Shown here piece after piece: positions 1,502 through 21,478 of a stretch of 64,000 bases of DNA. The notes below the pieces were generated by a model. It ran no database searches. It was not told the origin of the DNA and was given only the letters and a program-made list of their open reading frames with translations. A program made the translations under genes and the position numbers. Each line of letters starts with the position of its first letter. Position 1 is the stretch's first letter. The DNA is from Maritalea myrionectae DSM 19524 (GTDB lineage Bacteria; Pseudomonadota; Alphaproteobacteria; Rhizobiales; Devosiaceae), in NCBI RefSeq assembly GCF_000423365.1, contig NZ_KE384009.1, positions 1,176-65,175 on the forward strand, written 5' to 3'.

Positions 1502-1767
1502 CTATTTGAATAGTGAGTACTTAGTTCGAAGAAATCTGCAATCACAATCATTGACTGTGCGCTTGGTTTGGATAGGGCATTAATTGTCAGGATCGTTGTC
1601 GTTCGACGATAATGATTTTATATCTAGGTGACATTTTAGCTTTGCGCTTATGCAAGTTGTTCGGATAACATATCTTATGGAACAAATAATATAGACTTCC
1701 TGCAGCCAACCGATCCCACGTCTAAGGTCGATCAAGCGCCGCCGAGGTGAAGTGGATTGGTGTCAGC
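1502..1767. other. AT-rich gap without a recognisable gene
   Basis: No convincing reading frame, transposase remnant or RNA gene was seen here on either strand. Composition changes from AT-rich to the more GC-rich background at about 1700-1760, just before the end of uxaA, so the border between the foreign-looking segment and the catabolic island probably lies here. Confidence 0.5.
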
Positions 1768-3291: not shown

Positions 3292-3292
3292 T

Positions 3293-6631: not shown

Positions 6632-7452
6632 CGCAGCGTCTCCATGGGAACCATGTCCATATCGGTGAAATCGACATTATCTCCGGCCATCGCCCAGCAG
6701 AATGTGTAAGCACCAGTGCCTGCCCCACTATGGATCGACCAAGGTGGCGAAATAATTGCCTCCTCATTGGCGATCACCATATGGCGAGTTTCGTCCGGTT
6801 CGCCCATAAAGTGGAACACGCGCTGTTCTTCTGAGAGATCAAAATAGAGATAGGCTTCCATGCGTCGATCATGACGGTGCGCGGGCATGGTGTTCCACAC
6901 TGAACCAGGCGCAAATTGGGTGTAGCCCATGAGAAGCTGGCAGCTTTCACACACTTCAGGGTGTAAGAACTGAATGATGACGCGCTCATTTGCTGTTTCC
7001 GCTGAACCCAACTCAACCCGTCTGGCATCAGCAATTTTGATCAGCTTGGTGGGATAGGTGTGATGTGCCGGGGCGCTCAAAATGTAATAGCGTCCAGGGG
7101 CACTGAACGTAATTGGTCCTGCGCCACGGCCAATATAGAGCACCTCGCCCGCACCCACTTCATAGGTCGTGCCGTCGACAGTGATCGTGCCCGCCTCGCC
7201 AATATTCAAAACGCCCATTTCACGTCGGTCAAGCACACCGGGGGTGCCGGTTTCCGCCACATGTTCGAGCACAATATCCTTGTCAGTTGGCACGGCTGAC
7301 CCAAGCATCATGCGGTCATAATGGGTATAGACGAGCTTGAGCGTGCCGGGGACAAACAAGCCATCTACATGAAAATGTTGTCGCAAGGATTGGGTGTCGA
7401 ATGATTTCGCCGAGACCGGGTCAATCGCGTGACGTGTTTCTACATTTGGCAT
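6628..7452 (-). CDS. kduI: 5-keto-4-deoxyuronate isomerase
   Basis: KduI isomerises 5-keto-4-deoxyuronate to 2,5-diketo-3-deoxygluconate in the breakdown of pectin, ulvan or glycosaminoglycan-type unsaturated uronates. The 274-residue cupin-fold protein is close to the 278 residues of E. coli KduI. The metal-binding region PAHRHDRRMEAYLYFDL and the C-terminal ISPPWSIHSGAGTGAYTF stretch are typical. It is followed by kduD with ATGA overlap and preceded by kdgF after 11 bases, so the three unsaturated-uronate genes form one translational block. Confidence 0.95.
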   Translation of the reverse strand: MPNVETRHAIDPVSAKSFDTQSLRQHFHVDGLFVPGTLKLVYTHYDRMMLGSAVPTDKDIVLEHVAETGTPGVLDRREMGVLNIGEAGTITVDGTTYEVGAGEVLYIGRGAGPITFSAPGRYYILSAPAHHTYPTKLIKIADARRVELGSAETANERVIIQFLHPEVCESCQLLMGYTQFAPGSVWNTMPAHRHDRRMEAYLYFDLSEEQRVFHFMGEPDETRHMVIANEEAIISPPWSIHSGAGTGAYTFCWAMAGDNVDFTDMDMVPMETLR

Positions 7453-7463
7453 GGTGGCTCCTT

Positions 7464-7775
7464 TTAAAGAAAGTCGTCGCGGCGCGGGGTGAAGCTGTCG
7501 ATCAGCTCGCCGGATTCAAGGCAAACACAGCCATGTGTCGCCTCTGATGGAATGATGAAGGAGTCGCCTGGGCCAACCTCAATCTGCTCCTCCCCCAACG
7601 TGAAGCGGAACTTGCCGCTACGCACAAAAGTGGATTGAACATGAGGATGGTTGTGCAGGGCACCTTCAGCCCCCGCTTCAAACTTAAATGAAACGATCAT
7701 TAGGTCTTTGTGTTCGCTCAAGACTTGGCGTGTGACGCCGCGGTCTGCAGCAATTGCTGGATAGGTTTTTAGCAT
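7464..7775 (-). CDS. kdgF: KdgF-like cupin, unsaturated uronate linearisation
   Basis: A single-domain cupin of 103 residues. The metal site is visible as HNHPHVQSTFVRSGKF (residues 42-57) and a second His in IPSEATHG near residue 81, ending with the DSFTPRRDDF tail common in KdgF. KdgF speeds conversion of 4,5-unsaturated monouronates to the linear 5-keto-4-deoxyuronate that KduI uses. It lies directly before kduI, which supports this role. A generic small cupin is the alternative, but motif and context agree. Confidence 0.87.
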   Translation of the reverse strand: MLKTYPAIAADRGVTRQVLSEHKDLMIVSFKFEAGAEGALHNHPHVQSTFVRSGKFRFTLGEEQIEVGPGDSFIIPSEATHGCVCLESGELIDSFTPRRDDFL

Positions 7776-7782
7776 CTCAATC

Positions 7783-9063
7783 TCATTTGAAAACGGAGGG
7801 AAGCCAAAGTGAAAGGCTTGGAATATAGGTCACCATCATCAACACAAAGATGGCGGCGAAATAGAATGGCCAAATGGTTTTGATGGCCTCCGAAATTCTG
7901 ATTTTGCCGACGGCACACCCGACAAACAGCACGGCGCCTACGGGCGGCGTACAAAGGCCAATCCCCAGATTGAGGATCAAAATGATGCCGAATTGCACCG
8001 GGTCGATGCCATAGGCCAACGCCACTGGCAAAAAGATCGGCGTGGTGATCACAATCAAGGGTGACATGTCCATAAAGGTGCCAAGCAACAACAGAATGAT
8101 GTTGAGCATCAACAGGATGACAAGTGGGTTTTGTGAAACGCCTTTCATCCATTGCACCAACTCGGCGGGTACGCGCAAATAGGCGAGCAGCCAGCCAAAG
8201 GCGGCGGCAGAGCCGATCACGAGGAGCACCATTGATGATGTTCTGACGGCGGACAGTGTGGCGGCAACAAACTCGTTCCACGGCAAGGATCGATAAACGA
8301 GAATGGTGACCGCAATCGCGTAAATCACGGCAATGCCTGAGCTTTCAGAGGCGGTGAACACGCCGGAGCGCACGCCACCAAACATGATCGCCACCAGAAT
8401 GAGGCCGGGCAAGGCTCCAACCAATAGGCCGAACACGGCGCGCGCGCCCGGAAATGGCTCGGTGGAGTAGCCACGCTTTTTGGCCACAAACCAGGCGACA
8501 ATCATAAGAGCCACGGCAAGCAACAACCCGGGAATAATCCCAGCTGTAAACAGGTCGGCGATGGACATACGCCCGCCGGCGGCAATCGAATAGATGATCA
8601 GATTATGCGAGGGCGGCAGCATCAGCGCAATGATCGATGAAACCACAGTAATATTGACGGCATAGTCGCGGCCATAGCCGCGTTCCGCCATTTGCGGAAT
8701 CATCAAGCCACCAATGGCTGACGCATCAGCTGCTGCGGAACCTGAGATGCCGCCAAACATGACTGATGCAGTGATGTTGACTTGTCCCAAACCGCCGCGC
8801 AAATGCCCCACGGCCGCGCCCGCCAGTGCCACAAGGCGCCGGGCAATATCGCCGCGCACCATCAGCTCACCAGCGTAAATGAAAAAGGGAATTGCCAACA
8901 ACGCAAAAACTGAAATGCCGGAGTTTAGCCGCTGGAAAACAACAACGGGGGGCAGCCCCAAAAAGGCGATGGTGGCAAAGCTGGACACGCCAAGACAAAA
9001 GGCCACGGGAGCCCCGATCAACAAAAGCCCGGTGAATGTGCCGAAAAGAACAACAAGTTCCAT
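7783..9063 (-). CDS. TRAP transporter large permease (DctM type), uronate operon
   Basis: Very hydrophobic 426-residue protein with about twelve membrane segments and the DctM hallmark GGISGSAAADASAIGGLMIPQM-type region (shown here over residues 93-114), plus PPSHNLIIYSIAAGG. It forms the ion-driven channel of a TRAP transporter with the small permease at 9067 and the binding protein at 9643. Encoded inside the uronate operon, it most probably imports a hexuronate or an unsaturated uronate. Substrate cannot be read from the permease itself. Confidence 0.93.
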   Translation of the reverse strand: MELVVLFGTFTGLLLIGAPVAFCLGVSSFATIAFLGLPPVVVFQRLNSGISVFALLAIPFFIYAGELMVRGDIARRLVALAGAAVGHLRGGLGQVNITASVMFGGISGSAAADASAIGGLMIPQMAERGYGRDYAVNITVVSSIIALMLPPSHNLIIYSIAAGGRMSIADLFTAGIIPGLLLAVALMIVAWFVAKKRGYSTEPFPGARAVFGLLVGALPGLILVAIMFGGVRSGVFTASESSGIAVIYAIAVTILVYRSLPWNEFVAATLSAVRTSSMVLLVIGSAAAFGWLLAYLRVPAELVQWMKGVSQNPLVILLMLNIILLLLGTFMDMSPLIVITTPIFLPVALAYGIDPVQFGIILILNLGIGLCTPPVGAVLFVGCAVGKIRISEAIKTIWPFYFAAIFVLMMVTYIPSLSLWLPSVFK

Positions 9064-9066
9064 AAA

Positions 9067-9588
9067 TTATTCCTCAATCACGTCGTCGCCAAAGCGGGGC
9101 GTGTGCAAGCCCACAACGCGTCGCAATAACCGTTCCAGGGAAAACAAAACCATCAACACCCCGCCAAAAATCAGCGAAAAGAAGCTGGTGGCGCCGGTGA
9201 TGCCCAAATTGGGTATGGTGGTGGCCCACGTTGTGGCCGCAAGTTGCAAGCCATAACCGATCATGCCGGCGCCAAACGCGATCACCACCAGATCGGAAAT
9301 AGAGTGGCAGATTTTTACCAATGGGCGCGGCAGCACATAGAGCAGGACATCAAAGCTGAGGTGATTTCCCTCGCGAATACCAACGGCAGCGCCGAGGAAA
9401 ATCACCCAGCCCATCAGCAGTATGGAGGACGTTTCGGTCCAGGTTGGGGTATCATTCAGAACAAAACGTCCCCACACTTGCATGCCGATAAAAACCGTCA
9501 TGGCAACCAACCCGGCGCCAGCCATCCACAAAACAAGGCGAGAGAACACGGCCAGAATGCGCGAGAAAGCGAGTACAAAATCGACCAT
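9067..9588 (-). CDS. TRAP transporter small permease (DctQ type), uronate operon
   Basis: A 173-residue integral membrane protein with four predicted helices and the DctQ-type WxETSSILLMGWVIFLGAAVGIREGNH pattern around residues 50-76. The ATG at 9588 was chosen because GGAG lies six bases before it; a TTG at 9600 is the longer alternative. It works with the large permease three bases downstream and is separated from the binding-protein gene by a strong stem-loop at 9608-9634. Confidence 0.9.
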   Translation of the reverse strand: MVDFVLAFSRILAVFSRLVLWMAGAGLVAMTVFIGMQVWGRFVLNDTPTWTETSSILLMGWVIFLGAAVGIREGNHLSFDVLLYVLPRPLVKICHSISDLVVIAFGAGMIGYGLQLAATTWATTIPNLGITGATSFFSLIFGGVLMVLFSLERLLRRVVGLHTPRFGDDVIEE

Positions 9589-9607
9589 TGTGAACTCCAA
9601 TCCGAAA

Positions 9608-9634
9608 ATGCGGGCCAGGCAGCCCGGCCCGCAT
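9608..9634 (-). terminator. Stem-loop between TRAP binding-protein and permease genes
   Basis: Perfect 9-base arms ATGCGGGCC and GGCCCGCAT around a nine-base loop, followed by only three to four T residues on the transcribed side. It probably acts as a partial terminator or as an RNA-stabilising 3' end that leaves more binding-protein message than permease message. Confidence 0.75.
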
Positions 9635-9642
9635 CCTAAAAT

Positions 9643-10623
9643 TTACTCAACTGCTCTGATCTTTTGGACCAAATCTTTGAGCTTGTCGGATTTTACGTGT
9701 TTTTCATACACGGGGTCCATGGCGTTGATGAATGGCGTCTTATCCACGTCTTCAACAATCTCCACGCCTGCAGCGCGTACTTTTTCCTCAGATGCCTTTT
9801 CACGGGCAGCCCAGAGCTCGCGCATGACGGGCACAGAATCTTTCGCTGCGTCGCGAATGAGTTCCTGATCATCAGGGGCAAGACCGTCCCAAGACTTTTT
9901 GCTCATCACCAACACTTCAGGCACGATCAAATGCTGATCAAGGGTGTAGTAGCCTGCCACTTCGTAGTGACCAGATGATTCAAATGAGGGCCAGTTATTC
10001 TCTGCACCGTCGATCACACCTGTTTGAATTGAGGAATAAACCTCACCATAAGGCAATGGTGTCGCGTTGCCGCCCAATGCGCTTACCATGTCCACAAACA
10101 CGTCAGATTGCATCACGCGGAATTTCAAACCTTCAACATCCTCGATGGAAGTGATGGGCTTTTTGCTGTTGTAAAAGCTTCGTGAGCCGCCATCATAATA
10201 AGCAAGGCCAACAAGTCCGTGATTGCTAAATTCGTTCAGAATGGATTCACCGACTTCGCCGTCAACCACTTTGTGCATGTGATCCGTGCCACGGAAAATA
10301 TAGGGCAGCGAGAACACTTTGGTTTCTTCAATAATGTTATTGAATGGCCCAAGACTTACACGGTTCAGATCGATCACGCCCAGCTGGGTTTGCTCGATGG
10401 TGTCTTTTTCTTCACCCAATTGCGCGGAGTGGAACACTTCAACGCAAATTCGGCCATTTGAGCGCTCTTCCAAAAGCTCGCCCATATACTGAACCGCTGC
10501 AACGGTCGGATAGCCTTCAGGGTGGGTGTCAGATGATTTGAGGGTGATGTCGCAAGCGGTCGCCGCTGTTGCGAATGATGCAGACGCCAACAGGGCGACG
10601 ACACTGGTTTTAAGATGTTTCAT
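9643..10623 (-). CDS. TRAP transporter periplasmic binding protein (DctP type), uronate operon
   Basis: Signal peptide [20 protein letters not shown] then a mature DctP-family receptor of about 300 residues. Family features include [45 protein letters not shown] over the middle (the Arg that anchors the ligand carboxylate lies in KFRVM). The ATG at 10623 follows GAGGAAAAC and is preferred to an upstream in-frame ATG at 10650. The protein should bind an acidic sugar; neighbours uxaC and kduI point to galacturonate, glucuronate or an unsaturated uronate. It lies 35 bases after uxaC. Confidence 0.92.
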
Positions 10624-10658
10624 GTTTTCCTCCCAAGAAATTGAAACCAATTAACTGA

Positions 10659-12065
10659 TCAAAGCGCGTACGCTTTTTTGGCCAGTCCATACGTCAGGTC
10701 ATAAGCGACCTGATACGCCTCGTTTTCGCGCAATCGGCCAGTGGCGACCAATTGGGCGAGATAAGAACAGTCGGCCCGGCGCGCCACATCGTGTCGCGCG
10801 GGGATAGAGCAAAAGGCTCGCGTGTCATCATTGAACCCGACTGTGTTGTAAAATCCGCAAGTCTCCGTTGTGGCCTCGCGGAACCGTTTGATGCCTTCAT
10901 AGCTGTCAAAAAACCACCAGGGCGGCCCCAGCTTAAGCGCGGGATAAACCCCCGCCAACGGCGCCAGCTCGCGGCCATAAGTTGTTTCATCCAGCGTGAA
11001 CATGATGATGGTTAGACCCGGCTCAAAGCCAACCGCATTCAATAGGGGCTGCAGCGCGTCCACATAATCTGTGCGTCCTGGAATATCAAAGCCCTTGTCG
11101 CGCCCATATGTGGCCAGCACATCTTGGCTGTGGTTGCGGCGCGAGCCCGGATGCAATTGCAGCGTCAGGCCGTCGTCTAAAGACATGCGCGCCATTTCCG
11201 TAATCATTTGCCCACGGAACAGATCTGCCTCATTGGCGGAAAAAGTGCCGCTGATCACCTTTTGATATAGGGCCGCCGCTTCGGATTGATCGAGATCGGC
11301 AGTGCGGGCGGTGGGATGCCCGTGATCGCTGGCGGTGGCGCCATGTTCTTTAAAGAAGGCACGCCGCGCGCGATGGGCGTTCAAATAGCCTTGCCAATTG
11401 GTGGTGTCTTCGCCAGTGATGGCGCCGAACTGCTCAATATTGGCGTGAAAGCCCTCAAATTCAGGATCGACCACAGCGTCCGGCCGATAGGTGGTCACCA
11501 CCCTGCCCGTCCAGTCACTTTGCGCGATCTGCTTGTGCCACTTCAGATCGTCCAAAGCCGATTCTGTTGTTGCCAAAACTTCAATATTAAACCGCTCAAA
11601 AATCGCTCGTGGGCGGAAATCTTCCTCGCCCAGCTTTTGGTCGATATGGTCATAATATGCATCGGCATTGTCGGCCGTGAGTGGCGCATCTAGGCCAAAC
11701 ACATGTTCAAATGAATGCTCCAGCCACATGGCGGTGGGCGTCCCACGAAACAGATAAAAATTCTCAGCCAGCAATCGCCAGATGGCGCGCGGATCGCGCT
11801 CGGTTTTTTGACCATCAGCTTTGGGAATGCCCAGCGCATCCAATTCAATGCCCTGGCTCACCAGCATGCGAAACGCATAATGGTCGGGCACGACAAACAA
11901 TTCGGCGGGGTTGGAAAAACGTTGGTTTTGCGCAAACCAGGCTGGGTCGCAATGGCCATGGGGGCTGATGATCGGCAAGTCGCAAACAGACTGGTAAAGC
12001 CCCCGCGCCATAGAGCGCACATTTGGGTCAACCGGAAAAAGTCTGTCTGGGTCCAAAATTGCCAT
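10659..12065 (-). CDS. uxaC: Uronate isomerase
   Basis: UxaC isomerises D-glucuronate to D-fructuronate and D-galacturonate to D-tagaturonate, the entry step for both uronates. The 468-residue protein has SPHGHCDPAWFA near the N terminus (metal-binding His pair), VVPDHYAFRML, LHPGSRRNH in the middle, and TFTLDETTYGRELAPLAG; E. coli UxaC has 470 residues. It belongs to the amidohydrolase superfamily. As first gene of the minus-strand uronate operon it is divergent from the GntR regulator at 12178, so its promoter lies in the gap 12069-12177. The ATG at 12065 is preferred over a TTG directly before it. Confidence 0.95.
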   Translation of the reverse strand: MAILDPDRLFPVDPNVRSMARGLYQSVCDLPIISPHGHCDPAWFAQNQRFSNPAELFVVPDHYAFRMLVSQGIELDALGIPKADGQKTERDPRAIWRLLAENFYLFRGTPTAMWLEHSFEHVFGLDAPLTADNADAYYDHIDQKLGEEDFRPRAIFERFNIEVLATTESALDDLKWHKQIAQSDWTGRVVTTYRPDAVVDPEFEGFHANIEQFGAITGEDTTNWQGYLNAHRARRAFFKEHGATASDHGHPTARTADLDQSEAAALYQKVISGTFSANEADLFRGQMITEMARMSLDDGLTLQLHPGSRRNHSQDVLATYGRDKGFDIPGRTDYVDALQPLLNAVGFEPGLTIIMFTLDETTYGRELAPLAGVYPALKLGPPWWFFDSYEGIKRFREATTETCGFYNTVGFNDDTRAFCSIPARHDVARRADCSYLAQLVATGRLRENEAYQVAYDLTYGLAKKAYAL

Positions 12066-12068
12066 CAA

Positions 12069-12177
12069 TATCCGTCCACTTTTGTGTTTCTAGCCGACTA
12101 ATATGCTAGATTACTAGTTGAGTCAAACCAAAAAAGCGGATAGAAAGAAATTCACAATAGAAACGGAGCTCGATGTG
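12069..12177. promoter_or_regulatory. Divergent control region between uxaC and the GntR regulator
   Basis: The short gap must hold the promoters of both the uronate operon (minus) and the regulator (plus). A CTAG-N4-CTAG element at about 12105-12116, within an AT-rich stretch with AATATGCTAGATTACTAG, is the best visible candidate for a dimeric FCD-type GntR operator. No textbook -35/-10 pair stands out. The region assignment is by position; the operator is a guess. Confidence 0.35.
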
Positions 12178-12873
12178 ATGGGGACCAGACTTGCTTCTTT
12201 GGCGACAACGCCGCCTCAGACTGCAACCGACCAAATTTTTGACACGCTCTATCAAGCTGTAATTTCTTTGGAATTGCCGCCGGGGACAAAATTGTCTGAA
12301 GCCGAAATGGCCGCTCGGCTGGATGTCTCGCGTCAGCCGGTGCGCGATGCGTTTTATCGTCTTTCGAAAATCGGGCTGCTGGCCGTGCGCCCTCAGCGGG
12401 CCACCTTGGTGACCAAGATTTCAGAGGCCGCAGTTCTTAATGCGGCCTTTGTGCGGATTGCCTTGGAAGTGGAATGTTTGCGGCGCGCATTTGAAACCAA
12501 TGGCGCGTCATTGATTGCACATCTGCGTGAAAATATTGCCGCCCAGCAAAACGCCCTCGACTCAACCGATCCCGCCGGCTTTCACGCTTTGGATGAAGAA
12601 TTTCACCGCTTGGTGTGTGAACATGCGGGGCATGAGCATGTGTGGGGTCTCATTCAAGATCACAAAGCGCATCTTGACCGCGTGCGTTATCTCACCTTGT
12701 CACAAGAACATCGTGCACGCGTGCGCGGTGAACACTACGAAATTCTTTCCGCGTTAGAAGCAGGCGATCTGCCTCTTGCCGAAAAGAATTTGCGTGCACA
12801 CCTGACCGGGATCAAACCGCATCTGGAAATATTGCGTCGCAAACACGCAGCCTATTTTGAAGAGCGCGTCTAG
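12178..12873 (+). CDS. GntR-family (FCD) regulator of uronate catabolism
   Basis: N-terminal winged helix (residues about 12-78: LPPGTKLSEAEMAARLDVSR, then QPVRDAFYRLSKIGLL) and a C-terminal all-helical FCD ligand domain with the metal-binding pattern DEEFHRLVCEHAGH and later HYEILSALEAGD...HL. Length 232 with the ATG at 12178, chosen for GGAG nine bases upstream; a TTG at 12118 is possible. FCD regulators such as ExuR and UxuR control hexuronate genes, usually as repressors released by a sugar acid. Its divergent position to uxaC makes the uronate operon its likely target. Confidence 0.88.
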   Translation: MGTRLASLATTPPQTATDQIFDTLYQAVISLELPPGTKLSEAEMAARLDVSRQPVRDAFYRLSKIGLLAVRPQRATLVTKISEAAVLNAAFVRIALEVECLRRAFETNGASLIAHLRENIAAQQNALDSTDPAGFHALDEEFHRLVCEHAGHEHVWGLIQDHKAHLDRVRYLTLSQEHRARVRGEHYEILSALEAGDLPLAEKNLRAHLTGIKPHLEILRRKHAAYFEERV

Positions 12874-12918: not shown

Positions 12919-14166
12919 CTATTCGATTAGGATGGCGCGGAAGTCGTTTACGTTGGTCAGTGTTGGGCCAGTGATAAACTGATCGCCCAAGGCCTCAAAA
13001 AAGTGGTGTGCATCGTTTCGTTGCAAATAGTCTTGCGGAGCGCAGCCGAGATCTGTCGCGCGCTGTAAGCTGTCGGGCAAAACAAATGCGCCTGCAACTT
13101 CTGCCGCGCCATCCACACCGTCTGTATCGGCGGCCAGCAGGGTGATGCGAGGATTGCCGTTCAAGGCGATAAGCGCAGCGAGTGCATATTCTGCATTTGG
13201 GCCCCCCACTCCATTTCCGGTTCTGGTAACGGTGCATTCGCCTCCAGAAAGGATCAGCAGTGGTTTTTGCGTGGCCGCGCGATTTGCGGCAATCTCAAGT
13301 GCTTTATGGGCATGGGCGGCGCCCAACTCGCGGGCTTCGCCTTCAAGGTCATCGCCCAACATCAATACGTCACATCCAACTTGTTCAGCCACTGTTTTCG
13401 CGGCGGCCAAAGACTGAGACGGTGCGGCCACCACTTTGTTGCTTACCTTATCTTTTAAAGCCTCAAAATCTTGATCTGGGTCTACGGAAAATTGGGCGAA
13501 CGGAGCCGGGTCTATGCCCCAGCGCTCTAAAATATCTGACACCGAATTTGCTGACGGCGGCTGCGGCACTGTGGGTCCGGACGCGATGACGGCAACATCA
13601 TCGCCGGGCACATCGGAAATGATCAAGCCAAGCACTTGCGCCGGCGCACACGCCGCGGCGAGTTTGCCGCCCTTCACCTGAGATAAATGCCGCCGCACTA
13701 CGTTCATTTGTGAAATAGGGGCACCACTGGCCAGCAAGTCTTTGTTGATTTGTTGCTTTTGCGCGAGGCTAAGGCCATCGCGTGGGGCACATAAGAGCGA
13801 CGACCCGCCGCCAGATATCAGCGCCAGAACCAAATCATCAGGGGTGAGATTGTCGACAAGATTTAGAATACGGCGGGTGGCGTCCACACCGGCTTGGTCG
13901 GGCACCGGATGTGCCGCTTCCACAATCTCAATCTGCTGGGTTGGACGGCTATAGCCATATCGCGTGATAACCAACCCTTCCAAGGGCTGATCATAATGGC
14001 GCTCAACAGCCTCAGCCATCCGCGCGCTGGCTTTGCCCGCTCCAATCACGATCAAGCGCCCTTTCGGCGGCGGCGGTAAATGGGCCGCCAAACAATTCAT
14101 CGGATCTGCGGTTGCGACGGCTTGTTCAAACAAGTTTTGCAGCAGGCGGGTGGCATCGCTTTGCAT
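12919..14166 (-). CDS. Glycerate 2-kinase (MOFRL family)
   Basis: Protein of 415 residues with the two-domain glycerate kinase II/MOFRL architecture: IVIGAGKASARMAEAVE near residue 37, ALISGGGSSLLCAP in the middle, IISDVPGDD, and a C-terminal MOFRL domain with LILSGGECTVTRTGNGVGG and LLAADTDGVDG. Such enzymes phosphorylate D-glycerate to 2-phosphoglycerate; older annotations call some of them hydroxypyruvate reductase (TtuD). It is the last gene of the LacI/ABC/GH63-like operon, where it would use the glycerate freed by the hydrolase at 15259. The start ATG at 14166 follows an in-frame TTG. Confidence 0.88.
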   Translation of the reverse strand: MQSDATRLLQNLFEQAVATADPMNCLAAHLPPPPKGRLIVIGAGKASARMAEAVERHYDQPLEGLVITRYGYSRPTQQIEIVEAAHPVPDQAGVDATRRILNLVDNLTPDDLVLALISGGGSSLLCAPRDGLSLAQKQQINKDLLASGAPISQMNVVRRHLSQVKGGKLAAACAPAQVLGLIISDVPGDDVAVIASGPTVPQPPSANSVSDILERWGIDPAPFAQFSVDPDQDFEALKDKVSNKVVAAPSQSLAAAKTVAEQVGCDVLMLGDDLEGEARELGAAHAHKALEIAANRAATQKPLLILSGGECTVTRTGNGVGGPNAEYALAALIALNGNPRITLLAADTDGVDGAAEVAGAFVLPDSLQRATDLGCAPQDYLQRNDAHHFFEALGDQFITGPTLTNVNDFRAILIE

Positions 14167-14198
14167 CAATCAAATACTCAACCAGTTGGTGGGTGAAA

Positions 14199-15248
14199 TC
14201 ACGAAACGCGCATGCCGTCTTTGTCGAAAAAGCTCAATTTATCTGCATCAAAGCTGAGGCCCACCTTTTCACCAATGTCGAGTTCGGTGCCGCCGACGCA
14301 GCGCACATTGATCCGGCCTACCGCACCGCAATCAACAATCACAAAGCTGTCCGAGCCGAGATATTCGATCAAATCCACAACGCCATCGCATTGGCCCGTT
14401 CCCACTTTTCCCAATGCAATGTGATCGGGGCGGACGCCGATCTGGATGGCATTATCGGTAAAATCATAATTGCCTCCGCGCGCGCCATCTAGTTTATAGG
14501 CCCCGTCCTGCGTGGTGCAGGACATCAGATTCATTTTCGGGCTGCCAATAAACTGCGCGACAAAGGTGTTTTGCGGCCGCTCATAAAGCTCGCGCGGCGT
14601 GCCCACCTGGGCAATTTTGCCAAACTCCAACACAACTATGCGGTCAGCCAAGGTCATGGCTTCCACCTGATCATGGGTCACATAAATCATGGTGGATTGC
14701 AGCGATCGGTGCAGTTTGGCAATCTCATGCCGCATTTCGACCCGAAGTGCCGCATCGAGATTTGATAGGGGCTCATCAAACAGAAAGGCCGTTGGGTCAC
14801 GCACGATGGAGCGACCGATGGCTACGCGTTGGCGCTGGCCGCCCGACAAATCTTTGGGCCGGCGCTGCAGATAGGGCTCGAGTTGCAGCGTTTGTGCCGC
14901 ATAATCCACCTTCTCTTGAATCTCAGCCTTTGGTGCACCTGCGGTTTTCAACCCAAAGGCCATATTGTCCCATACCGACATATGCGGATAAAGCGCGTAG
15001 CTTTGGAACACCATGGCCAGGCCGCGCTTGGCCGGCGGGTGGCCGGTGACATCCTTGCCATTGATTTCCAGGGTGCCGCGCGAAATATCCTCCAAGCCGC
15101 CAATCATGCGCAATAAGGTGGATTTGCCGCAGCCTGACGGCCCGACAAAAACGAGGAATTCCCCTTCATGGATGGATAAATCGATGCCCTTAATCACTTG
15201 CGCATCGCCATACCATTTCTCAACTGATTTCAACTCAATTGAACCCAT
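14199..15248 (-). CDS. Sugar ABC transporter ATPase (UgpC/MalK type)
   Basis: Carbohydrate-type importer ATPase of 349 residues: Walker A GPSGCGKST near residue 36, Q-loop VFQSYALYPHMSV, signature LSGGQRQR, Walker B AFLFDEPLSNLDA, switch His in YVTHDQVEA, and a C-terminal TOBE region (IGVRPDHIAL). The start at 15248 is chosen because AAGGAGG lies five bases before it and it then begins just after the hydrolase gene ends; a longer frame to 15344 overlaps that gene. It powers the MalFG-like permeases of this operon, though such ATPases are sometimes shared between sugar transporters. Confidence 0.93.
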   Translation of the reverse strand: MGSIELKSVEKWYGDAQVIKGIDLSIHEGEFLVFVGPSGCGKSTLLRMIGGLEDISRGTLEINGKDVTGHPPAKRGLAMVFQSYALYPHMSVWDNMAFGLKTAGAPKAEIQEKVDYAAQTLQLEPYLQRRPKDLSGGQRQRVAIGRSIVRDPTAFLFDEPLSNLDAALRVEMRHEIAKLHRSLQSTMIYVTHDQVEAMTLADRIVVLEFGKIAQVGTPRELYERPQNTFVAQFIGSPKMNLMSCTTQDGAYKLDGARGGNYDFTDNAIQIGVRPDHIALGKVGTGQCDGVVDLIEYLGSDSFVIVDCGAVGRINVRCVGGTELDIGEKVGLSFDADKLSFFDKDGMRVS

Positions 15249-15258
15249 CATATCCTCC

Positions 15259-16500
15259 TTAGGTGCGGCCAGCCCAGCTAAGCCAAACGGCGGCTGTCCA
15301 CGTAAATCCTTGTCCGCCAGCAGCGCTGCCGTCCGTCGGATCAAAATATTCAGAAAAACCGCTCTCCTCGATCAGCGTTTTCGTGGCGATGCGCACACGT
15401 TCAGCAAGCGGATGGTTTCTCTCCTCGAGGCCAAGCCCGATCAGCAGATTCATCACGGCCCAAGTTGGCCCGCGCCAATATCGACGGCCATCAAATTTGT
15501 CGCTTTCGGGATCATGGCTGGGTACGCCATATTGCACTTTGTCGAGCACCCGCTGCAATTGCTTGGTTTGTCCCTCTGAATCAAGACCGGCATACCAGCA
15601 CAAGAATGAGGCATTGGATACGCAATTCGCCCATTCGCCGCTGTGGGCATCCCGCGCATCAAAACTTTCAAGCTCAGGATTCCAAAGTGTTTGCGCGCCC
15701 TGCTCCAAAATCTCAATTTCTTCGGTGATGCCGCCAACATCAAGTCCAAGCATTTGCCCCATGGCCAGCAAGTCGCGCTGTGCGCGCAACAAGGTGAAAG
15801 TCATGGTGGGATCGGCAACACGAAACGGGTTTTCGTCTAACAGTTTTTGCTGATCCCAATGCAGGCGCCGCCCCATTTGCACCAGCCAGATATAGCGGTC
15901 GTAATCATATTTTGTCGGGCGCATAGAGCCGTCGACATGCTGGGTATCGCGCCGCACATATTCGCCCACATCTGTCGGGTCGATGCGAGCCATCGGCGCA
16001 TCCCACTCCGGCGTGTTGTCACGCCCCGCTTCCCATGGATGGGTCACGCAAACGGCGCCTCGGTCCAGCCGCCATTGCATAAACCAACTATGCCAGCGGC
16101 GCAGCTTGGGGAACAGCGCCCGCAAATGCTCTTCGCCTAGTGTTTGGTCCTTTTCAAAAATCAGCCGCGCCATGGTTGCGGCAATTGGTGGTTGCGTGAT
16201 GCCGGATGAAGGAATTGGCCCGGTGCCACCCCAAACATCTGGCCCGGGGTAATAACCGGGATCGGCCTTGTGAAACACAATATGGGGCACCATGCCGTCG
16301 GCCCATTGGGCACTAAACAGCGTCTCCAATTCGGCCCAGGCGCGCGCGCAGTCAAACTGCGCAAAGCCAAGCGCGGCAAAGGCGCTATCCCAATTCCACT
16401 GATAGGGGTAAAGCCCTTTGGTTGGGATGGTGTACCCGCCGCGATCATTCATTTTCAAAATGTCGCGCGCCTGTTCGTCTAAATCGATCGTCTTTGTCAT
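15259..16500 (-). CDS. GH63-like hydrolase, probable glucosylglycerate/mannosylglycerate hydrolase
   Basis: A 413-residue (alpha/alpha)6-barrel type hydrolase without signal peptide, so cytoplasmic. Visible motifs are PYQWNWDSAFAALGF (31-45), YYPGPDVWGGTG (83-94), HPWEAGRDNTPEWD (154-167) with candidate acid Asp161, RGPTWAVMN, and SEYFDPTDG (383-391) with candidate base Glu384. These fit the bacterial MgH/GgH group of GH63 that splits mannosyl- or glucosylglycerate to hexose and glycerate. A trehalase-like or other alpha-glucosidase role is possible from fold alone; the glycerate 2-kinase in the same operon is the argument for a glycosylglycerate. Four bases separate it from the permease gene upstream. 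Confidence 0.75.
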   Translation of the reverse strand: MTKTIDLDEQARDILKMNDRGGYTIPTKGLYPYQWNWDSAFAALGFAQFDCARAWAELETLFSAQWADGMVPHIVFHKADPGYYPGPDVWGGTGPIPSSGITQPPIAATMARLIFEKDQTLGEEHLRALFPKLRRWHSWFMQWRLDRGAVCVTHPWEAGRDNTPEWDAPMARIDPTDVGEYVRRDTQHVDGSMRPTKYDYDRYIWLVQMGRRLHWDQQKLLDENPFRVADPTMTFTLLRAQRDLLAMGQMLGLDVGGITEEIEILEQGAQTLWNPELESFDARDAHSGEWANCVSNASFLCWYAGLDSEGQTKQLQRVLDKVQYGVPSHDPESDKFDGRRYWRGPTWAVMNLLIGLGLEERNHPLAERVRIATKTLIEESGFSEYFDPTDGSAAGGQGFTWTAAVWLSWAGRT

Positions 16501-16503
16501 AAA

Positions 16504-17709
16504 TTACCCTTTGACAGAGCCTGCGGTCAGGCCTTTGGTCATAAATCGTTCAAGCCCCAAAAACAGCGCCATGATCGGTACGGTTGCGATCACCGCACCG
16601 GCCATAAGATGTTGTCGGGGAATTTCAGAGGAGTTGAGGCTGGCAATGCCCCGCGTCAGCGTGAATTTGGACGGGTCGTCCAGCAGCATAAAGGCCAGCA
16701 AAAATTCGTTCCACGCGATCATAAACACATAGAGTGAAACCGAGGCGATGGCCGGGAGCGACAAAGGCAAAGTGATCTTCCAAATCACGGCCAAGCGCGA
16801 CAACCCATCCATCAACCCCGCCTCTTCAATCTCGCCCGGCAGGCCGCGGAAATAGCCTTGCAGCATATAAAGCGCCACGGGAATGGTGGTGACGGGATAG
16901 ATCAAAATGATCCCAAAGATCGAGTTGCGCAATCCGGTCAGCGAAAAGGCGATATAGATCGGCAGGGCCAAGACGATCATGGGCACCATATAGATCAGCA
17001 AAATGGAGCGTGAAAATGCAGCTTGGCCGGAAAACCGCAGCCGCGCCACGGCGTAAGCGCCGGGAATGGAAAAGGCCAGCGTGATGAACACGGTGAGAAT
17101 TGAAATCACCATCGAATTGGCCAAATAAATGCCAAAATTAAAGTCGGCGAACAATTCGACATAGGAGCGGAACAGGCCCCACCCTTTTGATAAATCCAGG
17201 GAGAAATCCAACGGGTTTTGCACCAACTCAGATTGATTTTTAAAGCTGGTCATTACCATCACATAAAAGGGGATCAGCACAATGGCAGTGAAGAACACAT
17301 ATCCAATTGCCGTGAGCAACCGTATGATGATCTCTTCAAATTCATGGCGCGACAATGCCCCTTTGGGCGCGACTTTAGTGATGGCATAAGTGCCACCCAC
17401 AGCAATGGTCGCTGACAAAAGATGGGTGAAGCTGTTGGTGAGCACCGCTGCGGCATCGCCGCTGGTCACAATGCCAAAGCCGAGCATGCCCGCAATGGCA
17501 AGGGCCACGCCGCTGGCCAATGCAGCCAATCGACTGTGGGTTACGAAAAACCCAGTCAGCGCGCCACCAATAACGATCCAAACCATATCTGGTTTGTAAG
17601 GCAAGCCAGTCGCAAAGCTCAACGCAATGGCAGTGATCGTTGCGGCCACAAAGGTCCACACCAACCCAACAAAAATAGAGGTGATCGCTTTTCTGCGTAA
17701 TTTGATCAT
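16504..17709 (-). CDS. Sugar ABC permease (MalG type) with extra N-terminal membrane segments
   Basis: Residues from about 130 to 401 are a normal MalG-type permease with a FYVMVMTSFKN first loop and the ATPase-contacting EAA loop EEAGLMDGLSRLAVIWKI. The first 125 residues are additional: about four hydrophobic segments (12-35, 42-57, 61-83, 93-112) joined by short loops, not seen in usual MalG proteins of about 280 residues. The ATG at 17709 overlaps the stop of the MalF-like gene by four bases; an upstream ATG at 17766 is less likely. It pairs with the permease at 17706-18941. The purpose of the extension is unknown. Confidence 0.9.
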   Translation of the reverse strand: MIKLRRKAITSIFVGLVWTFVAATITAIALSFATGLPYKPDMVWIVIGGALTGFFVTHSRLAALASGVALAIAGMLGFGIVTSGDAAAVLTNSFTHLLSATIAVGGTYAITKVAPKGALSRHEFEEIIIRLLTAIGYVFFTAIVLIPFYVMVMTSFKNQSELVQNPLDFSLDLSKGWGLFRSYVELFADFNFGIYLANSMVISILTVFITLAFSIPGAYAVARLRFSGQAAFSRSILLIYMVPMIVLALPIYIAFSLTGLRNSIFGIILIYPVTTIPVALYMLQGYFRGLPGEIEEAGLMDGLSRLAVIWKITLPLSLPAIASVSLYVFMIAWNEFLLAFMLLDDPSKFTLTRGIASLNSSEIPRQHLMAGAVIATVPIMALFLGLERFMTKGLTAGSVKG

Positions 17710-18941
17710 AGCCCTTCCTCCTGTGAAATGAAGCGGAAGAAGAACAAGGAGAACGCCACAAGGCACATAAAGATCACCACGGCGACAGCCGCCCCTGCGC
17801 CAATGTTCGAAATCGCAAATGCTTCTTCGTAAACACTCACAGTCAAGGTTCGCGTGCCCGCATTGCCGCCGGTGAGCAGGAAGATGTCGTCAAATTTGTT
17901 GAAGGTCCAGATAAAGCGCAGCAAAAACAACACCGACAAAATGCCCAATAATTGCGGAATGCTGAGATACCAAAACTTTTGGAACGGGCTGGCGCCGTCC
18001 ATATCTGCTGCTTCATACATTTCACTGTCGATGGATTGCATGCGCGCCAAAATGAACAAGAAAGAAAGGGGGAAATAACGCCAAATCTCGAACACCGTCA
18101 CCATGATCAGTGCGAGCGGTCGATCACCAAAAAAATTGATCGCTTCATCGGTCACGCCCATTTGGATCAACAGCGCATTGGCGGACCCGGAAAACGGGTC
18201 GAATAGGATGAGCCACGAAAAGGCCACGGCGATCACCGGCGCGACATAGGGAAAAAGATAAAGTCCGCGCAATATGCCCTGCCCCCTAAAGGATTTGTCC
18301 AAAAGCAAAGCTGCGAACAGGCCCACGACGAGCGCGCCAATGGTGCCGAATACGGTGTAGAACAACGTCACGCCAAGCACAGAAATAAACTGGCTGCCAT
18401 CAAAAACCCGCGCAAAGTTCTCAAGGGTGAATTCAAAATTGGTCAAAATGTTATCCGCCGTGCCAGTGACCTGCGGTTCTGAGCTTTCAACAATCTCTTC
18501 TGCCGCATCTTCGTTGTCGGCAGTGACCGGAAAGATGATCTTCTCATTATGGCCGGGTTCTAATCGTTCAAAACTGCAGGTGAGTTGGCGTCCATCAAGT
18601 GCACAGGATTGCGGCAAGGGCTCGCGCAAAGTCACTTCGGCGGGCAACTCATCAACTATTTTTACGTCCCGAATTGCCTCGGATCTGCTGGAATTGCGCA
18701 AACGATATTCAATGCGCAACTTCTCAGCCGAGCCGCGCAACGCCTCTTTTACGATGGGCGTTGGTGGGCGCAAATCGGCCAGTTCAATCGGCTTAAAGCT
18801 AATCCAGAAAATGGCGACAAGCGGCAGCACCACAACAAGGGCGACGCTGATCAGTGTGGGCGCCAAAAGGCCCCACGCTAAGCGTTCTTCGCGCTTGGCC
18901 ATAGGTGTTTTTGCGGTCGGACGGTTCAGATTGTCTTGCAT
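17706..18941 (-). CDS. Sugar ABC permease (MalF type) with a periplasmic DUF11-like insertion
   Basis: Of 411 residues, about 22-47 form the first membrane helix and the canonical MalF-like core resumes at about 180, with the EAA loop YEAADMDGASPFQKFWYL. Between them, roughly residues 58-165 form a hydrophilic insertion. Its pattern (IEYRLRNSS, VKIVDELPAEVTL, LTCSFERLEPGHNEKIIFPV) resembles DUF11-type beta-sandwich repeats, with Cys113 and Cys122 placed for a disulfide. Topology puts it outside the membrane. E. coli MalF also has a large periplasmic domain, but after its third helix. The ATG at 18941 is preferred over 18986 because the latter runs into the stem-loop. Confidence 0.88.
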   Translation of the reverse strand: MQDNLNRPTAKTPMAKREERLAWGLLAPTLISVALVVVLPLVAIFWISFKPIELADLRPPTPIVKEALRGSAEKLRIEYRLRNSSRSEAIRDVKIVDELPAEVTLREPLPQSCALDGRQLTCSFERLEPGHNEKIIFPVTADNEDAAEEIVESSEPQVTGTADNILTNFEFTLENFARVFDGSQFISVLGVTLFYTVFGTIGALVVGLFAALLLDKSFRGQGILRGLYLFPYVAPVIAVAFSWLILFDPFSGSANALLIQMGVTDEAINFFGDRPLALIMVTVFEIWRYFPLSFLFILARMQSIDSEMYEAADMDGASPFQKFWYLSIPQLLGILSVLFLLRFIWTFNKFDDIFLLTGGNAGTRTLTVSVYEEAFAISNIGAGAAVAVVIFMCLVAFSLFFFRFISQEEGL

Positions 18942-18960
18942 GGTTTCGTTTCTTTGAACG

Positions 18961-18984
18961 GCCCCGGCGCCGAAGCGCCGGGGC
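18961..18984 (-). terminator. Ten-base-pair UUCG stem-loop after the binding-protein gene
   Basis: Perfect 10-base arms GCCCCGGCGC and GCGCCGGGGC; on the transcribed strand the loop is TTCG, an exceptionally stable tetraloop. No T-run follows, so it is more likely a 3' stabiliser or pause than a full terminator. It lies just past the stop of the binding-protein gene and just before the MalF-like gene. Confidence 0.8.
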
Positions 18985-18991
18985 ACATCAA

Positions 18992-20338
18992 TTATTCAAC
19001 TTGGGACAATTCATCATTCATGGCGGCTACAGCATCAGCGGCTGAAACATCACCGTCCAGATACTGGCGCACCACGCGGTTGATGATTTGTGAGTTGATG
19101 ATTTTAGACGCAAGGCTCAATTGGCCTTCTTTCACGCCCCAGCGCTGGGCAACATCCAAGCCACCAACGATTTCATCAATCATATCCTGCGCGTAAAGAT
19201 CACCCAATGGGGCTTTGCGATCAACGCCAACGGGCAGCTTCGCCCATGCATCAACAAATTGCGTTGGGTTTTCGCTTGTGCCACGGCGCACAGGGAACTT
19301 GCCCTCCGGCGCAATGCTCAATGTCTGCGTATAGCCTTGATCCATTGAATATTTCACAAAATCCATCGCCGTGTCTGTGTCCGCGTCGGCAGTGATGCCG
19401 AAATAGCGAATGTCACCCCAGGCGGCGCCGTCTGGATTTGATGGTCCTGCAAAGTTGGTCACAACGCCTGTTTTCGACGCGAGCGCTGGCGAGGTTGGAT
19501 CATCATTGATGGTTGGTGGCGCACTATCGCGAAGGCCTGCCAATTCATCCAGAATGAACGGCGACCAAATGATCATCGCCGCATTGCCGGAGAAATAAAG
19601 CTCACGCGATTGCTTCCAATAAAGATCGCCCGGTGGTGAGGCTTCAACGACCGCTTTATAAAACTCCAGTACCTCGGTGGTTTTGGCTTCGTCCAGCGGG
19701 AAGAACCCATCGCTCGATACGGGGGAAACTCCGTTGGCCAAGAACACATGTTCCAGCACTTGAGACATGAAGTTTTCGTCCACTTTGGTTGCCGCCACAA
19801 AGCCAAACATGGAAGGTGGATTGTGCAACTCTTTAAGTGCCGCCTCAACATTGGCGTAAGTTGTTGGTGCCGCTAGGCCTTTTTCCTCAAACAAGTCTTT
19901 GCGGTAAACGATCATCTGTGTCCAGCCGTCGACAGGCACAGAAGCTGTGCCGTCTTCATAGGCGGCCATGGCGATGGCGCCAGGTGCGAATGTATCGACG
20001 CCCAGATCCTCAATCACTTCAGTGGCCGCATCTGTATCTAAAATGCCAGCTTCCGCCCAAGGCAATGCATATTGCAGCGTGTGATAAATCACATCTGGCA
20101 AATCACCTGCCGCAAATGCGGCGGTGGCGCGTGTGCCCAAATCATTTTCAGAAACAGGGATAACTTCCACGTCGGTCCCGGTTTCAGCTTTGAATTGAGC
20201 TGCCATTTCTTGCTGTTTTGCCAAGCGTTCTGGCTGTTCTTCTGTTGTCCAAAAACGCAGACTATCCGCGTAAATGGATGTACATGACATCAACACAGCC
20301 ACAGCGGCCGTCGTCATAAGTGTTGTCGTTTTCCTCAT
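18992..20338 (-). CDS. Sugar ABC transporter binding protein
   Basis: A 448-residue extracellular solute-binding protein of family 1 with signal peptide at the N terminus (basic MRKTTTLMTT, hydrophobic core, cleavage near YADS). The mature N terminus LRFWTTEEQPERLAKQQEMA and the DLPDVIYHTLQYALPWAEAG region are typical for sugar receptors. It delivers ligand to the MalFG-like permeases downstream. Context suggests a glycosylglycerate. A GGGAGG ribosome site precedes the ATG, and the lacI gene ends 21 bases upstream in the same orientation. Confidence 0.9.
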   Translation of the reverse strand: MRKTTTLMTTAAVAVLMSCTSIYADSLRFWTTEEQPERLAKQQEMAAQFKAETGTDVEVIPVSENDLGTRATAAFAAGDLPDVIYHTLQYALPWAEAGILDTDAATEVIEDLGVDTFAPGAIAMAAYEDGTASVPVDGWTQMIVYRKDLFEEKGLAAPTTYANVEAALKELHNPPSMFGFVAATKVDENFMSQVLEHVFLANGVSPVSSDGFFPLDEAKTTEVLEFYKAVVEASPPGDLYWKQSRELYFSGNAAMIIWSPFILDELAGLRDSAPPTINDDPTSPALASKTGVVTNFAGPSNPDGAAWGDIRYFGITADADTDTAMDFVKYSMDQGYTQTLSIAPEGKFPVRRGTSENPTQFVDAWAKLPVGVDRKAPLGDLYAQDMIDEIVGGLDVAQRWGVKEGQLSLASKIINSQIINRVVRQYLDGDVSAADAVAAMNDELSQVE

Positions 20339-20359
20339 CTATTCCTCCCGATGATGTGG

Positions 20360-21427
20360 TTATCGTGCAATTTGTGCTGCCAAGTCAGCTGACGAGAGCA
20401 ACACGGGACCGTGCGATCCACGATCCAAAAAACGTGCCTTTCCGATTTCTCGTAAATCCTGTGGCGGCTCTCCGCGCACCCGCCGGATCAAGAGCTCGGC
20501 GAGGCGGGCGCCGGCAAGGTTTGTGTCTACAGAATAAGTGGAGAGCTCTGGCGACAGCACCGCCCCCTCTGGGATGCCGTCATAAGAGATCAGCGAAACT
20601 TCATGTCCAACCTTCAGGCCCAGTGATCGAATGGCGTCATACGCGCCAACGGCAGCATGATCGACCGAACAAACGATTGCGGTGGGCGGCTGTTTCAGCG
20701 CCAACAATTGGGAAACGGCATTAAACCCTTGCGGCTTATCAACTGCATTTGCGGAGACCAGCTGATCGTCAAAATCAAGGCCAACCGCGGCCAAGCCATC
20801 GCGGTATCCGTGTAGCCGCAATTTGGCATAGTGATAGCCTGCGCCGCCTGGCACAAAACCGATGCGGCGATGTCCCAAATTATAAAGCGTTTCTACGGCT
20901 TCAAACATGGCCGCTTCACCGGCAATGTCATACCATGCGCAATCGGCGATATTGTCTGTGCGCCCATAGAGCACAAACGGAATATGCGCGGCCCGTAGTG
21001 CATCGATCCGTAGGTCCTCACTATAGGTCCGCGGTAAAATGAAGCCATCTGCCTTGCGCTCTTGCGATAGTTTCTCGAGCAAGCGCACTGCGTCCGAAGT
21101 GCTGTTGGCGGTGGCCAGCGTCAAGGTCCAATCCTGCGCAGCGGATGCTTCGGTGATGCCTGCCAAAAAGTCTGCGAGAAACGGGCGGTGGCCGTCATGT
21201 TCAGAAACTTGCAGCACCAAGCCGATCGAGCGCACGCGCCCTGTTTTGATGGCTTGGGCGTGAGAGAGCGGACGATAGGACAAAGCTGTCGCGGCATTGC
21301 GCACGCGCAATCGCGTTTTTTCCGAAATATCCGGATAATCATTCAGCGCGCGACTCACCGTGCTTTTGGTCAGCCCAAGTGAACGCGCCAGATCATCAAT
21401 GGTCGTGCGTTTGCCAATAGCACTCAT
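20360..21427 (-). CDS. LacI-family repressor of the glycosylglycerate-type operon
   Basis: A 355-residue LacI/GalR protein: helix-turn-helix TIDDLARSLGLTKSTVSRAL and hinge at residues about 9-60, then a periplasmic-binding-protein-like ligand domain (residues 65-340). The start at 21427 follows GAGGAGGAG and puts the DNA-binding domain at the very N terminus; a longer start at 21481 would run through the operator palindrome. It is the first gene of its operon, and a perfect palindrome lies 35 bases upstream, so autoregulation with repression of the whole transport/hydrolase operon is likely. Confidence 0.92.
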   Translation of the reverse strand: MSAIGKRTTIDDLARSLGLTKSTVSRALNDYPDISEKTRLRVRNAATALSYRPLSHAQAIKTGRVRSIGLVLQVSEHDGHRPFLADFLAGITEASAAQDWTLTLATANSTSDAVRLLEKLSQERKADGFILPRTYSEDLRIDALRAAHIPFVLYGRTDNIADCAWYDIAGEAAMFEAVETLYNLGHRRIGFVPGGAGYHYAKLRLHGYRDGLAAVGLDFDDQLVSANAVDKPQGFNAVSQLLALKQPPTAIVCSVDHAAVGAYDAIRSLGLKVGHEVSLISYDGIPEGAVLSPELSTYSVDTNLAGARLAELLIRRVRGEPPQDLREIGKARFLDRGSHGPVLLSSADLAAQIAR

Positions 21428-21462: not shown

Positions 21463-21478
21463 CCGAAACCGGTTTCGG
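21463..21478. promoter_or_regulatory. LacI-type operator palindrome
   Basis: CCGAAACCGGTTTCGG is a perfect 16-base palindrome with the central CG step and AAACCGGTTT core typical of LacI-family sites. It lies 36 bases upstream of the lacI start codon, where it would block the promoter of the seven-gene operon ending at 12919. Confidence 0.85.

Follow-up and report, generated by a model that had tools for sequence, protein, structure and literature searches.

Which solute does a sugar importer serve when its operon also encodes a glycoside hydrolase and a glycerate kinase? The question is raised by Maritalea myrionectae DSM 19524 (assembly GCF_000423365.1), where seven consecutive minus-strand genes occupy positions 12919-21427 of a 64,000-nucleotide stretch of contig NZ_KE384009.1 (contig 6 of a ten-contig genome of 3.54 Mb; the stretch is called the window below). 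In the order of transcription they encode a LacI-family regulator, a substrate-binding protein, two permeases, a hydrolase, an ATPase and a MOFRL-family glycerate kinase. Comparison with characterised enzymes and related loci makes it quite probable that the operon lets the cell feed on a glycosylglycerate taken up from outside, an estimate that covers either of two compounds. The likeliest is 2-O-alpha-D-glucosylglycerate, with alpha-mannosylglycerate as a possible second. The binding protein and the ATP-binding cassette (ABC) importer would carry the intact solute into the cytoplasm, where the hydrolase, a member of glycoside hydrolase family 63 (GH63) that by homology is inverting (acid Asp161, base Glu384), would split it into a hexose and D-glycerate, both for use by the cell. 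The kinase would then convert D-glycerate to 2-phosphoglycerate, while the LacI protein would keep the operon repressed, through a palindrome at 21463-21478, as long as no inducer is present. The features are:

21463-21478, no strand assigned: putative operator upstream of lacI, perfect palindrome CCGAAACCGGTTTCGG, without a second exact match in the 3.54 Mb genome
20360-21427, minus strand: LacI-family regulator (PF00356 and PF13377), start in agreement with the annotated plasmid
18992-20338, minus strand: periplasmic substrate-binding protein of a sugar ABC importer (PF01547)
17706-18941, minus strand: permease 1, MalF/UgpA-like (PF00528), with a beta-sandwich insert of about 100 residues after the first membrane helix
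16504-17709, minus strand: permease 2, MalG-like (PF00528), with an N-terminal extension of about 120-130 residues that contains hydrophobic segments
15259-16500, minus strand: predicted cytoplasmic GH63 glycosylglycerate hydrolase (PF22422) of the type of mannosylglycerate hydrolase (MgH) and glucosylglycerate hydrolase (GgH)
14199-15248, minus strand: ABC importer ATPase, UgpC/MalK type (PF00005 and TOBE_2; NF008653 459.4 bits, cut-off 432)
12919-14166, minus strand: glycerate 2-kinase, MOFRL family (PF13660 and PF05161)

Conservation of the operon

An earlier note on this DNA had described a LacI-headed operon with a full ABC importer, a hydrolase and a glycerate kinase, and all seven genes are indeed present and supported by Pfam: the ABC, SBP_bac_1, BPD_transp_1 and LacI models all score above cut-off, so that the importer is complete with binding protein, two permeases and ATPase. 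Bases 5000-29000 of the window align over their full length with the M. myrionectae plasmid pHL2708Y3 at 97.2% identity, and the annotated gene borders of this plasmid, including a 4-base overlap of the permease genes, match the calls made in the window.

A scan of genome contigs yielded 591 relatives, and the best 80 loci are treated here as close relatives. They belong mostly to Alphaproteobacteria, chiefly Rhodobacterales, and include Roseibium, Maritalea, Pleomorphomonas and some Granulosicoccaceae bins; many of these organisms are presumably marine. The order binding protein, permease, permease, hydrolase, ATPase is found in 78 of the 80 loci, and the other two end at contig ends (three loci, L018, L051 and L078, contain shortened matches). 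Since the same order recurs in this way, the operon is not a chance arrangement, and its conserved core is the operon without the kinase. Adjacent genes were considered as further members of the pathway and set aside, because the neighbours outside the core vary. A more distant set of 29 rows comprises nine genome stretches and 20 plasmid regions, which were picked for diversity, and thus not at random, among 40 listed of the 102 plasmid records with the hydrolase; the M. myrionectae region among them is nearly the window itself.

The active site of the hydrolase

RefSeq annotates the hydrolase as a “hypothetical protein.” It scores 372.7 bits against PF22422 (cut-off 27), a broad model that also matches a GH63 paralogue in the same genome. 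Its best match among solved structures is the MgH of Thermus thermophilus (TtMgH, TTHA0978; 2z07, 4wva; E 1.2e-100), likewise a GH63 enzyme, with 42% identity over 412 columns, followed by the GgH of Mycobacterium hassiacum (MhGgH; 5ohc) with 33%. The residues with which MhGgH binds and cuts glucosylglycerate have been named, and Tyr36, Trp40, Tyr88, Arg216 and Tyr375 were described as making direct polar contacts with the glycerate moiety (PMC6608630). From this source 19 catalytic and substrate residues were mapped in MhGgH numbering, allowing for an offset of two residues in the crystal construct, and 17 of them, including all five glycerate contacts, are identical in the window enzyme. The exceptions are Gln434 and Phe89, which are Phe and Tyr here. 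The earlier note's assignment of MgH/GgH-type motifs was thus borne out by comparison with the characterised enzymes.

The same 17 residues are retained in all 80 close relatives, with Phe at position 89 in 77 and Tyr in three. The catalytic Asp182 and Glu419 of MhGgH, which correspond to Asp161 and Glu384 of the window enzyme, are kept in 80/80 loci and also, together with Tyr36, Trp40, Tyr88, Arg216, Tyr222 and Tyr375, in 29/29 of the more distant rows; departures in the latter are confined to His78 (six rows), Gln115 (one), Trp436 (one) and Phe89, which is Tyr in three. Residue 434 was considered as a discriminator between glucosyl and mannosyl substrates and rejected, as Phe occupies it throughout the 80 loci and the 29 rows and is also found there in TtMgH and the paralogue.

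The paralogue serves as a control from within the genome. It lies at G000:C2:708374-710077 (equivalent to L136:8375-10078), adjoins ABC and LacI genes of its own and retains both catalytic residues as well as Trp40, Trp42, Asp43, Tyr375 and Trp376. By contrast, Tyr36, His78, Tyr88, Gln115, Trp177, Arg216 and Tyr222 are missing, although the cap region is difficult to align and the gaps there are less sure. Of the five glycerate contacts it therefore has Trp40 and Tyr375 but lacks Tyr36, Tyr88 and Arg216. This indicates that much of the glycerate site is specific to the window enzyme rather than general in GH63, and the paralogue probably acts on a different glycoside.

Two side observations concern related hydrolases. 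In Roseomonas plasmids (L111, L123) the GH63 enzymes have Gln in place of His78, and the operons continue with two amidohydrolases and a Rieske protein. In Shimia abyssi a second GH63 match, 56% identical to the window enzyme, directly follows the operon (L017:12562).

The glycerate kinase

The last gene of the operon scores above cut-off against DUF4147 (284.4 bits) and MOFRL (115.9 bits), and its solved relative is 2b8n, “glycerate kinase, putative” (E 3.7e-77). It stays below the NCBIfam equivalogs for glycerate 2-kinase (NF041176, 214.3 bits against a cut-off of 550; NF040791, 202.5 against 670), which are named for particular thermophile groups. In the genome it is the sole match to PF05161, and no kinase of the PF02595 family was found there. 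A kinase homologue adjoins the operon in only two of the 80 loci (L003 and L004, both Maritalea), with at least 1.3 kb of sequence following the ATPase gene in 71 of them, and in a Maritalea bin (L006) the position next to the operon holds no kinase.

Six of the 20 plasmid regions carry a glycerate kinase, in four arrangements. It follows the ATPase gene in the M. myrionectae plasmid, precedes the presumed lacI and also the operator in Limimaricola, and in Loktanella, Paracoccus and Jannaschia, where the permeases are shorter, comes after a D-lyxose/D-mannose isomerase; in Deinococcus it stands right after the hydrolase and is itself followed by a ROK kinase. The nine genome stretches include one with a kinase, at a distance of 13 kb. 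When 29 kinases were placed in a tree, those from the operons of Maritalea, Limimaricola, Loktanella, Paracoccus and Jannaschia formed one group (94/97, slightly below the programme's strong mark) and that of Deinococcus stood apart, while the hydrolases of the same five genera fall into two groups.

The kinase thus supports glycerate as a product, yet is an addition rather than part of the core, since it adjoins the operon in two of the 80 loci but recurs in other arrangements. In the wider set of loci the gene appears as a lineage-specific addition, which the earlier note could not show. Co-occurrence in genomes was tried as proof of a link and rejected: PF05161 is found in 43 of the 44 operon genomes that were scanned for it (representing 44 of the 80 loci), compared with 124 of 241 genomes in a class sample, but the operon genomes are mostly Rhodobacterales and relatedness confounds the comparison. 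In the class sample, nine of the ten genomes with a hydrolase match have PF05161.

Glucosylglycerate or mannosylglycerate

Evidence on the sugar comes from related operons that carry other enzymes. On a Paroceanicella plasmid (L110) a related importer with LacI, whose permease 1 is 55% identical to that of the window, is not accompanied by any GH63 match in the 15 kb opened. Instead a GH13 enzyme adjoins it in opposite orientation and carries PYELN and TETN, which have been described as motifs of glucosylglycerate phosphorylase (PMC10608839), the signature of this enzyme being given elsewhere as (T/S)ETN with a Glu in loop A (PMC7178133). Between the importer and the GH13 gene lies a copy of the operator with three mismatches, but stray copies with two or three mismatches occur elsewhere too (L108, L128, L135). 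A GH13 enzyme is also encoded by the last gene of a Meiothermus GH63 operon and has TETN and PYELC, as read by eye from the translation; the pattern PYE[LIMV]N with TETN matched Paroceanicella only. The nearest solved structures of these GH13 enzymes are sucrose and glucosylglycerol phosphorylases, and none of the structure matches listed for them is a chain named glucosylglycerate phosphorylase. Genes for the latter frequently occur together with one for a glycerate kinase (PMC7178133).

In other operons the signs point to mannose. D-lyxose/D-mannose isomerase (PF07385) occurs in at least five of the 20 plasmid regions, beside a different importer, and its presence in the GH63 operons of Loktanella, Paracoccus and Jannaschia suggests mannosylglycerate as the substrate there. 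Since TtMgH was reported to act on glucosylglycerate and mannosylglycerate with similar efficiency (PMC6608630), both may be used in Maritalea. No glucosyl-3-phosphoglycerate synthase scored above cut-off in the genome, in keeping with uptake and not synthesis by the cell itself; this search did not extend to synthases of the mannosyl type (mannosyl-3-phosphoglycerate synthase). On present evidence glucosylglycerate is most likely the substrate and mannosylglycerate possibly so.

The importer

Sequence, profile and Foldseek comparisons all give YcjN of Escherichia coli (8vqk) as the best solved relative of the binding protein. The operon of YcjN encodes YcjM, a glucosylglycerate phosphorylase (PMC6599011, PMC11543891). 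Modelling gives the insert of permease 1 a beta-sandwich fold (block pLDDT 78-86), and two cysteines in it are invariant in 14 of 14 aligned sequences. The insert resembles cellulose-binding and other beta-sandwich domains, with three matches at E < 0.001 and TM scores, normalised to the target, of 0.64-0.66 to 3ndy and 6qfs. Because the model of permease 1 is poor outside the insert (mean pLDDT 54.7 for the whole protein) and that of the binding protein reaches a mean pLDDT of only 67.2, the insert domain and the general fold of the binding protein are all that was used of these models. This long form is rare in the plasmid collection searched: permease 1 is matched in 620 of its records, but over 80% or more of its length in only five. 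Permease 2 is encoded by an open reading frame of 420 residues, of which the first 19 precede the likely start; PF00528 covers residues 234-408 and the MalG model begins at residue 151, while hydrophobic segments in the N-terminal extension are indicated by crude hydropathy.

The regulator and its predicted operator

The palindrome CCGAAACCGGTTTCGG is the sole match in the window at up to three mismatches, but a match at this tolerance also turned up in 31 of 100 shuffles, so that the evidence for an operator is its conservation across loci and not the match in the window alone. In the genome it occurs once exactly, and the only other site with up to two mismatches is on contig 3; the control pattern, CCGAAACCGGTTTCGG read backwards, has 19 matches per strand. 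An orthologue of lacI (at least 45% identity) precedes the importer genes in 58 of the 80 loci, and in 57 of the 57 with enough upstream sequence the palindrome is present at up to three mismatches within 150 bases upstream of it, compared with 27 other matches in the 1.53 Mb of the 80 loci. Binding of LacI to the palindrome and regulation from it are predicted on this basis. Fifteen further loci (L011, L027, L031 and 12 others) share the importer and the hydrolase, but their upstream LacI is distant (24-28%) and lies on the opposite strand, and palindromes of another type are seen upstream in some of these, e.g. GCATCGTTGCAACGATGT in L066. In a survey of LacI regulons (PMC4052901), none of the terms looked for are present.

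Alternative functions

Several observations weigh against uptake and hydrolysis of a glycosylglycerate, or against glucosylglycerate in particular, beyond the scarcity of the kinase beside the operon and the isomerases of Loktanella, Paracoccus and Jannaschia. The hydrolase scores 328.2 bits against the NCBIfam glucosylglycerate hydrolase equivalog NF047898, below its cut-off of 550, and is therefore named MgH/GgH type and not assigned to this equivalog. The operon contains neither a sugar kinase nor a sugar isomerase, and in the genome the Glucokinase family has one weak match of 24.3 bits (mannose enzymes were not searched there). YcjN is only 21-22% identical to the window binding protein, 7v09 and 8ula score nearly as well, and YcjN is itself an orphan, only commercially sold glucosides having been tested (PMC6599011, PMC11543891). 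Furthermore, some related GH63 operons carry PIG-L deacetylases or amidohydrolases, so that the wider hydrolase family may have further substrates; in L113 and L120, for example, a PIG-L deacetylase family gene follows the operon, which may reflect an acylated variant of the substrate. On the other side stand the five glycerate contacts, the contrast with the paralogue, the kinases beside operons and the phosphorylase-like partner in Paroceanicella, which together support the earlier note's proposal of a glycosylglycerate substrate.

Within this proposal mannosylglycerate is the less expected of the two compounds, and the doubtful but real chance given to it is a share of the overall estimate rather than an addition to it. 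It is suggested by the closest solved enzyme being a mannosylglycerate hydrolase, and by the related operons that combine another importer with the isomerase and a glycerate kinase, the kinases of both operon types forming one group (94/97). Against this, TtMgH handles both compounds similarly well, the operon in the window is without a mannose isomerase, the related Paroceanicella importer is paired with a glucoside phosphorylase, and the Phe at position 434 does not discriminate. A different solute, glucosylglycerol, would yield glycerol for the neighbouring glycerol-uptake operon, as a glycerol ABC operon with GlpK lies upstream in both the window and the plasmid, an ABC operon with the same set of genes is found downstream in Ruegeria conchae, and a dihydroxyacetone kinase is encoded near the Paroceanicella operon. 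This is very unlikely: matches to GlpK or glycerol permease (the operon's own permeases aside) are found in none of the 80 loci with flanks of up to 10 kb, the glycerate-contacting residues are invariant, MhGgH does not hydrolyse glucosylglycerol (PMC6608630), and the Paroceanicella GH13 enzyme has the glucosylglycerate motif instead of the glucosylglycerol motif VGAIYQ.

Equally improbable is an operon for general alpha-glucoside or trehalose use, in which case the family name “trehalase” would be right. The importer is indeed of the broad MalEFGK/Ugp type, and the annotation of some related genes reads “trehalase family glycosidase” or “neutral trehalase,” but the residues of the MgH/GgH glycerate site are conserved and several of them are absent from the GH63 paralogue of the same genome. 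Somewhat less remote, but still improbable, is a passenger kinase, one that works for adjacent pathways, for example hexuronate use, and is uninformative about the substrate of the operon. Its rarity beside the operon outside Maritalea, the lack of any other PF05161 or PF02595 kinase in the genome and the hexuronate cluster that comes next on the plasmid would all fit, as would Limimaricola, where the kinase precedes the operator and would thus be read from another promoter. This is countered by the single kinase group found beside GH63 operons in Limimaricola and, after the isomerase, in Loktanella, Paracoccus and Jannaschia, although their hydrolases form two groups, and by the distant kinase that Deinococcus has right after its hydrolase. 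A glycosylglycerate, most likely glucosylglycerate, thus remains the preferred substrate.

Relation to known systems

The rhizobial agl operon for alpha-glucosides has the same order of regulator, binding protein, two permeases, hydrolase and ATPase, but a GH13 alpha-glucosidase in the position of the hydrolase. TtMgH resembles the window enzyme also in the Phe at position 434, but Thermus makes its own mannosylglycerate. MhGgH, which shares the 17 mapped residues, differs in Gln434 and Phe89 and in its role, since it acts on the cell's own glucosylglycerate during recovery from nitrogen starvation (PMC6608630). The ycjMNOPQRSTUV-ompG genes of E. coli with YcjW likewise combine a LacI-type regulator, an ABC importer with the distantly related YcjN and a glucosylglycerate enzyme; by contrast, this system relies on the phosphorylase YcjM, alongside enzymes that act on other glucosides, and neither a glycerate kinase nor a GH63 hydrolase is among the genes named in the excerpts of PMC6599011 and PMC11543891.

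Glucosylglycerate has been reported as a major compatible solute of Prochlorococcus NATL2A, whose glucosylglycerate operon contains a putative transporter gene, and exchange with Alteromonas was suggested (PMC11631117); scavenging from the environment has also been raised as a possibility (PMC6608630). No description of a heterotroph operon of importer and GH63 hydrolase was found among the best-ranked matches of longer lists in the open-licence literature. The components are known, but the assembled uptake pathway seems little described. A broader reading, which we consider about evenly balanced, is that glucosylglycerate from marine picocyanobacteria is scavenged by a widespread, modular system, in which a dedicated importer with the unusual beta-sandwich insert would have a GH63 hydrolase or a GH13_18 phosphorylase as its partner enzyme and be joined by a LacI protein with a conserved operator and, repeatedly added, a glycerate kinase. 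If true, it implies that the orphan E. coli YcjN binds glucosylglycerate. The main use of the finding is a testable prediction of the substrate, also for YcjN. Since databases list the genes as “hypothetical protein” or “trehalase family glycosidase,” an established function would correct many such records, supply a metagenome marker for the flow of carbon through glucosylglycerate and point to a ligand for YcjN.

Neighbouring features of the window

The operon is adjoined by a cluster for hexuronate catabolism at 1756-12873 of the window, which contains uxaC and a TRAP transporter together with kduI, kduD, uxuA and altronate dehydratase according to the plasmid annotation. At the edge of the window, positions 1-61 consist of a tandem array of the 8-mer TTGCTGTT in 7.6 perfect copies.

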